64,000 nt of DNA, from positions 285,212 through 349,211 of the forward strand of contig PGZV01000005.1 of assembly GCA_002841495.1 (NCBI GenBank), written 5' to 3'. The notes under the pieces are model-generated. The model ran no database searches. It worked only from the letters and a program-made list of their open reading frames with translations, and was not told where the DNA came from. The stretch comes from Firmicutes bacterium HGW-Firmicutes-2 (lineage in GTDB: Bacteria > Bacillota > Clostridia > Lachnospirales > Vallitaleaceae). Both the position numbers and the translations under genes were made by a program. Shown piece after piece: positions 55,803-56,539 of the stretch (within the stretch, counting starts at the first letter, position 1; every line of letters begins with the position of its first letter).

Positions 55803-56258
55803 ATGAAACCATCATTTTCAAATCTAGAAGTCATTAAATTTGCTATAGGCATGGAAGATATGGGTATTGTATTTTATGAAGATTATGCTAAGAAGTCCGA
55901 TGGAGAGATTAGAACACTATTCTTAAGACTGGCAGATGATGAACGTCGCCACAAAGCATTTTTTCAAAGCCTATTAGATGATACCGAAAAAGAAGCAGGC
56001 GCTTTTGACTATATGTTTGATGAATCCGTAACCAGTTTTTTTGAAGCATTTGCTCAAAGTGCAGGATTCTCAAGAGAAATCAAAGACATTGAAACCAATA
56101 GAGAAGCCATCTTAGAAGGCATAACTACAGAAACACTAACCATTGAATATTACAAAGATTTACTAACGTATTCCAAAGAAAAAACTAAAGAAACATTGGA
56201 AATCATCATCAAAGAAGAAGAAGGACATTTAGCACTGCTTAATGGATTACTTAAATAA
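55803..56258 (+). CDS. Rubrerythrin-type ferritin-like diiron protein
   Basis: A 151-residue four-helix bundle of the rubrerythrin/ferritin-like group. Diiron ligand motifs are seen: E in GMEDMGIVFYEDYAK, DDERRH near residue 46, and a second pair, TTETLTIEYYKD and KEEEGHLALL near the C-terminus. There is no rubredoxin domain, so it is a stand-alone bundle (erythrin type). A peroxide- or oxygen-detoxifying role is inferred. Its 3-prime side carries the structured RNA segment below. Confidence 0.88.
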   Translation: MKPSFSNLEVIKFAIGMEDMGIVFYEDYAKKSDGEIRTLFLRLADDERRHKAFFQSLLDDTEKEAGAFDYMFDESVTSFFEAFAQSAGFSREIKDIETNREAILEGITTETLTIEYYKDLLTYSKEKTKETLEIIIKEEEGHLALLNGLLK

Positions 56259-56269
56259 TACTAAAGTTT

Positions 56270-56433
56270 AAATATTTAAAGCAATATCGACCATGAAGTT
56301 CCTGGAACAGTGTGTATGAATTAAGCAAGACAGCAGGAGCTGTCCGCCGACTTTTGGTGCAGGACGCACCAATCGGAGGCCGTAGTCATACATACTGTGG
56401 AAGGGTTTTCATGGGACCCACTTTGAAAATATT
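56270..56433 (+). ncRNA. Candidate structured non-coding RNA or 3-prime UTR element
   Basis: A 164-base segment with strong nested pairing. Outer pairs: AATATTTAAAG with CTTTGAAAATATT; CCATGAA (56291-56297) with TTCATGG (56408-56414); CAGTGTGTATGA (56308-56319) with TCATACATACTG (56386-56397, one G-U). Inside are two hairpins: GACAGC-AGGA-GCTGTC (56329-56344) and a longer one, CCGCCGA with TCGGAGG (one mismatch) enclosing TTGGTGC-AGGAC-GCACCAA (56344-56379). Both loops contain AGGA. It is not a recognised riboswitch, 6S, SRP, tmRNA or RNase P. No good promoter is visible, so it may be processed from the rubrerythrin mRNA. Confidence 0.55.
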
Positions 56434-56457
56434 AGAGGAATTTCATAGATTAAAAAA

Positions 56458-56495
56458 GAACTGACTCAGATTATATTCTGAGTCAGTTCTTTTTT
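56458..56495 (+). terminator. Strong rho-independent terminator
   Basis: A perfect 13-bp stem, GAACTGACTCAGA (56458-56470) with TCTGAGTCAGTTC (56477-56489), with a six-base loop and a run of T; an A-run on the other side makes it able to act in both directions. It ends the rubrerythrin and structured RNA transcript. Confidence 0.92.
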
Positions 56496-56539
56496 ACATA
56501 TGGTTAAAGGGTCAAAACTAAGTTTCACTAAATTGACCA

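Follow-up and report, generated by a model that had tools for sequence, protein, structure and literature searches.

The DNA analyzed in this study (the window) is a stretch of 64,000 nucleotides whose host, judged from its sequence, is Petrocella or a near relative. As shown in Table 1, a gene of the rubrerythrin family at this locus is followed by one copy of a repeat, here termed element A, and by an intrinsic terminator; the gene downstream of the copy is ispG/GcpE. The copy lies in sense orientation in the 3′ UTR of the rubrerythrin gene, 21 nt past the stop codon and ahead of the terminator, and is probably transcribed within that UTR. The fold of positions 56270 to 56495 was confirmed with an MFE of -91.7 kcal/mol (z = -9.99; shuffles, mean of -48.96 with a standard deviation of 4.28), and none of the 200 dinucleotide shuffles that served as a control reached the native stability. 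The first-pass annotation had described nested stems with two AGGA-type hairpin loops, a near-perfect 12-bp middle stem, and a perfect terminator. The nested stems and both loops were recovered at 56291 to 56414, with the outer stem pairing 56291-56298 to 56407-56414 and its extension pairing 56300-56303 to 56402-56405, and the middle stem was found to consist of 13 contiguous pairs (56307-56319/56386-56398). The terminator is indeed a perfect stem, of 19 bp (56452-56470/56477-56495), with an A-run and a T-run. It is separate from the repeated unit, since the conservation among copies, which spans from about AGCCAACATCGACC to GGGACC (56279-56418), ends at that GGGACC (56413-56418). The minus strand of 56270-56495 has nearly equal stability (z = -9.65), and the strand is therefore not assignable from folding energy alone.

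Table 1. Features of the rubrerythrin-ispG locus (positions in the window).
Feature	Position	Strand	Basis or remarks
Rubrerythrin-family gene, upstream	55803..56258	+	PF02915, 1.1e-13
Element A copy	56279..56418	+ (GGA-bearing)	Conserved (A/G)GCCAACATCGACC to GGGACC; ~40 copies per Petrocella genome
Outer stem, 5′ arm	56291..56303	+	CCATGAAG plus extension; fold; helix 1, 99.7% of cells paired
Middle stem, 5′ arm	56307..56319	+	Fold; helix 2, compensatory changes in 11/12 consensus pairs
Hairpin 1, loop AGGA 56335-56338	56329..56344	+	GGA in 48/48 copies; helix 3
Hairpin 2 base, CCGAC/GGAGG	56346..56380	+	Alignment rows L066, L067, L105, L077; sequence inspection
Hairpin 2, loop AGGAC 56361-56365	56354..56372	+	GGA in 47/48 copies; helix 5, 100% of cells paired
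Middle stem, 3′ arm	56386..56398	+	Fold and covariation analysis
Outer stem, 3′ arm	56402..56414	+	Fold and covariation analysis
Bidirectional intrinsic terminator	56452..56495		Fold; belongs to the locus, outside the repeat

The two loops of the window copy (AGGA and AGGAC) are shorter than the ideal ANGGAN hexaloop; AUGGAU is the loop of hairpin 1 in about half of the copies and that of hairpin 2 in half of them. The CCGAC/GGAGG base of hairpin 2 possibly forms tandem G-A pairs, and in the four copies listed for it in Table 1 this base is fully Watson-Crick, with GTCGG. At 56499-56537, the window contains a short, partly palindromic repeat, GGGTCAAAACTAAGTTTCACTAAATTGACC, with roughly 100 or more matches over three Petrocella relatives.

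Compensatory changes among homologues, on which the first-pass annotation had made its structure depend, were found: in the alignment of 48 copies (A1), 98.4% of the cells pair, and 23 of the 40 pairs have changed on both sides. Compensated cells number 113, compared with 28.7 in shuffles. None of 500 shuffles equals A1 on any measure, and slid-partner controls pair at 33 to 45%. The wobbles differ between the strands; i.e., on the GGA strand there are 59 derived G-U cells versus 5 A-C cells, in 16 versus 4 pair-columns (p = 0.012, an approximate value because the counted copies are related), and the related elements of genome G011 give 12 versus 1. An A-C cell here is a G-U on the other strand, and the G-U excess therefore indicates that the GGA strand has been kept foldable. 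From these comparisons, this strand is likely to be folded in vivo; the wobble asymmetry alone fits either RNA or single-stranded DNA. Of the 96 loops, 95 retain GGA, which bears out the earlier description of two loops with the GGA that CsrA-type proteins recognize. The loop length is 4 to 6 nt, exactly CAUGGAUG is found in 50 of the 96, and the two GGA sites are separated by about 24 nt.

In the genome of the window (G000), dozens of copies of the ~140-bp repeat were found, with 78 to 99% identity. With R1, a covariance model trained on Petrocella copies only, 38 copies were found in G000 and 31, 25, and 46 in three congeners (E ≤ 0.01), counts that were taken from search results and may be too low. 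R1 also detected five copies each in G004 and G013, which belong to two other genera of the same family. By DNA search, the repeat was present in 4 of 41 genomes, all Petrocella, and absent from the 37 others of the family and order; the right-end sequence also occurs in the records of Petrocella sp. FN5 and Firmicutes bacterium HGW-Firmicutes-3. The copies are intergenic, palindromic, modular, and sometimes tandem, and they carry no open reading frame. Truncated fragments that lack the 5′ part number 20, versus 6 that lack the 3′ part. The sequence in the window is one of dozens of dispersed copies instead of the stand-alone undescribed small RNA that had been proposed.

Upstream of some copies, modules C and B are found in a fixed order, as at L059:861-1120 (G000:C15:79170-79390), and composite C/B modules occur at about 16 further places in G000. 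Module B (about 16 copies in its own genome) has stems unrelated to those of element A and the same layout, with two hairpins bearing ACAUGGAUGU-type loops; these hairpins are on the strand opposite to the GGA strand of element A. An extra palindromic module (CTCATAAGAAAG...CTTTCTTATGAAATTT, enclosing a GCATCATGTC hairpin) sits at an identical place inside several copies (L072, L080, L081, L086, and L090). A pattern scan of viral contigs gave 50 matching contigs, none of which carries the repeat, and these short-pattern matches were rejected as chance. A contig considered as a further copy (L143, RUG13884) was rejected, as it has only a 20-mer in common and the repeat is absent.

Element A is a mobile dispersed repeat. 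At the rubrerythrin-ispG site, it is absent in G003 and G002, where a different terminator is found, and is reduced to a remnant in G001, where the terminator of the locus is retained. The site of L065 carries the repeat in G000 and G002 and lacks it in G001 and G003, and that of L085 carries it in G000 and G001 and lacks it in G002 and G003. At one further intergenic site, the composite of L073 and those of L180 and L185 are in opposite orientations among Petrocella species. At the orthologous positions L068:1346-1500 and L100:1490-1642, the repeat core swaps subfamily as a block; the 60-bp flanks are 95 to 100% identical and the element is 90% identical, a pattern that resembles gene conversion between copies or a replacement in place. 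No target-site duplication was found, the flanking words being of no greater length than those of shuffled pairings (4.51 versus 4.69). Element A thus shares dispersal, presence/absence polymorphism, and lack of coding capacity with classical DDE-type MITEs but not their target-site duplication. The first-pass annotation had named identity with a known mobile element or MITE as grounds for refutation; the sequence is a dispersed mobile repeat, but no previously described element was found to match. The proposal of a stand-alone conserved small RNA, or of a 3′-UTR-derived regulator functionally linked to rubrerythrin, agrees with the sense orientation of the window copy and with its place between the stop codon and the terminator, whereas the absence or decay of the repeat at the orthologous locus and the dozens of copies elsewhere in the genome refute a conserved link and make this proposal highly improbable. 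A strain-specific effect of the window copy alone is possible.

The orientation of the copies was scored relative to genes defined as the longest open frames, not by curated annotation, and the bias was read from tandem-gene sites alone, since convergent sites score as opposite in every case and carry no information on orientation. A count of 35 out of 37 downstream genes in the opposite orientation was discarded, since it included convergent sites and overstated the bias. Of the 18 tandem-gene sites in G000, 16 have the GGA strand antisense to transcription, the window copy being among the two in sense orientation, and the same holds for 12 of 13 in G011; the bias is not general, with a ratio of 5:7 in G076, G239, G065, and G120. 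As the GGA strand is mostly antisense at these sites, most copies would not be present in neighboring mRNAs as GGA RNA. GGA copies in mRNAs may be harmful and lost, or the bias may follow from the mode of insertion. The right end of element A is often less than 40 bp from the stop codon of a gene that runs toward it. This position, together with the good folding of the minus strand, is consistent with a REP/ERIC-like stabilizer or terminator of mRNA 3′ ends that acts on the same strand as the adjoining gene and carries UCC loops in the mRNA, but the wobbles kept on the GGA strand weaken this reading, which we consider improbable.

The architecture of element A is very probably that of TwoAYGGAY (RF01731). 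The first-pass annotation matched the structure to no common RNA class, and this holds insofar as no Rfam family matches anywhere in the window at the gathering score; given the RF01731 architecture, however, the class is not wholly undescribed. The window copy does not match RF01731 even at E ≤ 10, and the top-scoring copy of the genome reaches 19.3 bits, compared with a gathering cut-off of 43 that no tested copy passes, so that by the Rfam criterion element A falls outside the family. Low-threshold Rfam matches to microRNAs derive from the terminator hairpin and were rejected as chance. In the reverse direction, R1 matches the RF01731 loci L223 (6.5e-8), L227 (1.4e-6), L288 (3.5e-6), and L287 (3e-5), which are in three other genera and have the same coordinates as the RF01731 matches, and nothing else at that level. 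Since R1 misses 35 of the 39 RF01731-bearing loci, the kinship is real for some members only. RF01731 is itself dispersed in relatives: G011 contains 18 weak to moderate matches, and the single-contig genome G076 contains nine near-identical copies with the inverted terminal repeats AATGATATAAA/TTTATATCATT.

RF01731 was found in 29 of 291 Clostridia genomes; csrA is present in 25 of these 29 and in 70 of the 262 genomes without RF01731 (p = 4.6e-10, in a statistic that treats genomes as independent, although they are related). When only good assemblies are considered, the corresponding fractions are 22/23 and 65/214. The four csrA-negative exceptions are fragmented or incomplete assemblies, and other members of their family carry csrA. 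RF01731 is nearly confined to csrA-bearing, flagellated Clostridia. Because csrA and flagellin go together (95/110), the association of RF01731 with CsrA is inseparable from one with motility; among flagellin-positive genomes only, the comparison (25/95 versus 2/15, p = 0.35) is not significant.

The loops of element A follow CA(N)GGA(N)G, which CsrA and RsmE are known to prefer. Element A has GGA in hairpin loops, the consensus CANGGANG, and two sites at bridging distance, as CsrA targets do, and the csrA gene that the first-pass idea of a CsrA-sequestering RNA entails is present as a single copy in the genome (G000:C20:48278-48436). The most likely function is the binding of CsrA by copies that are transcribed, predicted from sequence with a probability of about 0.5, and the prediction that CsrA is the ligand of the GGA loops stands at the same even odds. 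A copy transcribed on the GGA strand (for the window, within the rubrerythrin 3′ UTR) would present both loops, ~24 nt apart, to one CsrA dimer, and the transcribed copies would serve as scattered sites or decoys for CsrA. The further prediction of a net sponge effect in the cell appears unlikely.

The main rival to CsrA binding is a nonautonomous element acting at the DNA level, of a REP/REPIN- or IS200/IS605-like kind, in which the GGA strand would fold as single-stranded DNA and the hairpins would be handles for a transposase or recombinase, with no RNA function. The dispersed, polymorphic, modular, and tandem copies, the excess of 5′-truncated over 3′-truncated fragments, the lack of target duplications (as in single-strand mechanisms), and the mostly antisense GGA strand at tandem-gene sites all favor this rival, and strand-specific wobble is also expected if one DNA strand is recognized. 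On the other hand, element A, module B, and the RF01731 elements of other genera are unrelated in sequence and all carry paired A(N)GGA(N) loops, for which one widespread binding protein is a simpler explanation than many transposases, and the near restriction of RF01731 to csrA-positive, flagellated genomes also argues against a purely DNA-level role. We regard the DNA-level element as a serious possibility that falls short of being likely.

Element A is a new, Petrocella-centered mobile repeat family with TwoAYGGAY architecture, and TwoAYGGAY-type RNAs can spread as repeats. Tentatively, and with more doubt than confidence, TwoAYGGAY itself may be a class of mobile repeats, not a family of small RNA genes, in which unrelated families converge and seed CsrA sites. 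If this is true, mobile-repeat families (A, B, and others in at least 10 Clostridia families) would spread the paired A(N)GGA(N) fold through csrA-bearing genomes, mobile DNA would seed the chromosome with CsrA-binding sites and perhaps create a distributed sponge for CsrA, and Rfam matches to RF01731 would need a different reading. CsrA-sequestering RNAs have been demonstrated mainly in Gammaproteobacteria. For Clostridia, the question was raised in 2014 by Gardner and Eldai (PMC4333381), who predicted CsrA binding by TwoAYGGAY and by the reverse complement of Bacillaceae-1, with its two predicted CsrA motifs, and no settlement of it was found in the literature. A strongly covarying family of 40 copies in a genome that has one csrA gene, in a genus that has cultured members, makes this question testable.

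Among known systems, the ERIC, BOX, and REP repeats and MITEs resemble element A as high-copy intergenic palindromes of ~140 bp that are modular or tandem and have no open reading frame, whereas in element A no target duplication was found, one strand is constrained, and the GGA loops are conserved. RF01731 has in common with it a long basal stem, a junction, a pair of adjacent hairpins whose loops read A(Y)GGA(Y), and multiple copies in relatives; the stem sequences of element A are different, however, and its loops are often shortened to AGGA or AGGAC. Bacillaceae-1 (RF01690) gives a weak minus-strand match at 56330-56394 (17.2 bits, E = 0.9, far under the 35-bit cut-off), which places its reverse complement on the GGA strand, but it is a short element that lacks the long outer stem of element A. 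CsrB/CsrC and RsmX/Y/Z likewise have several GGA hairpin loops and are proposed to titrate CsrA dimers; they are single regulated small RNA genes, whereas element A is a repeat dispersed over the genome, each copy having two sites.
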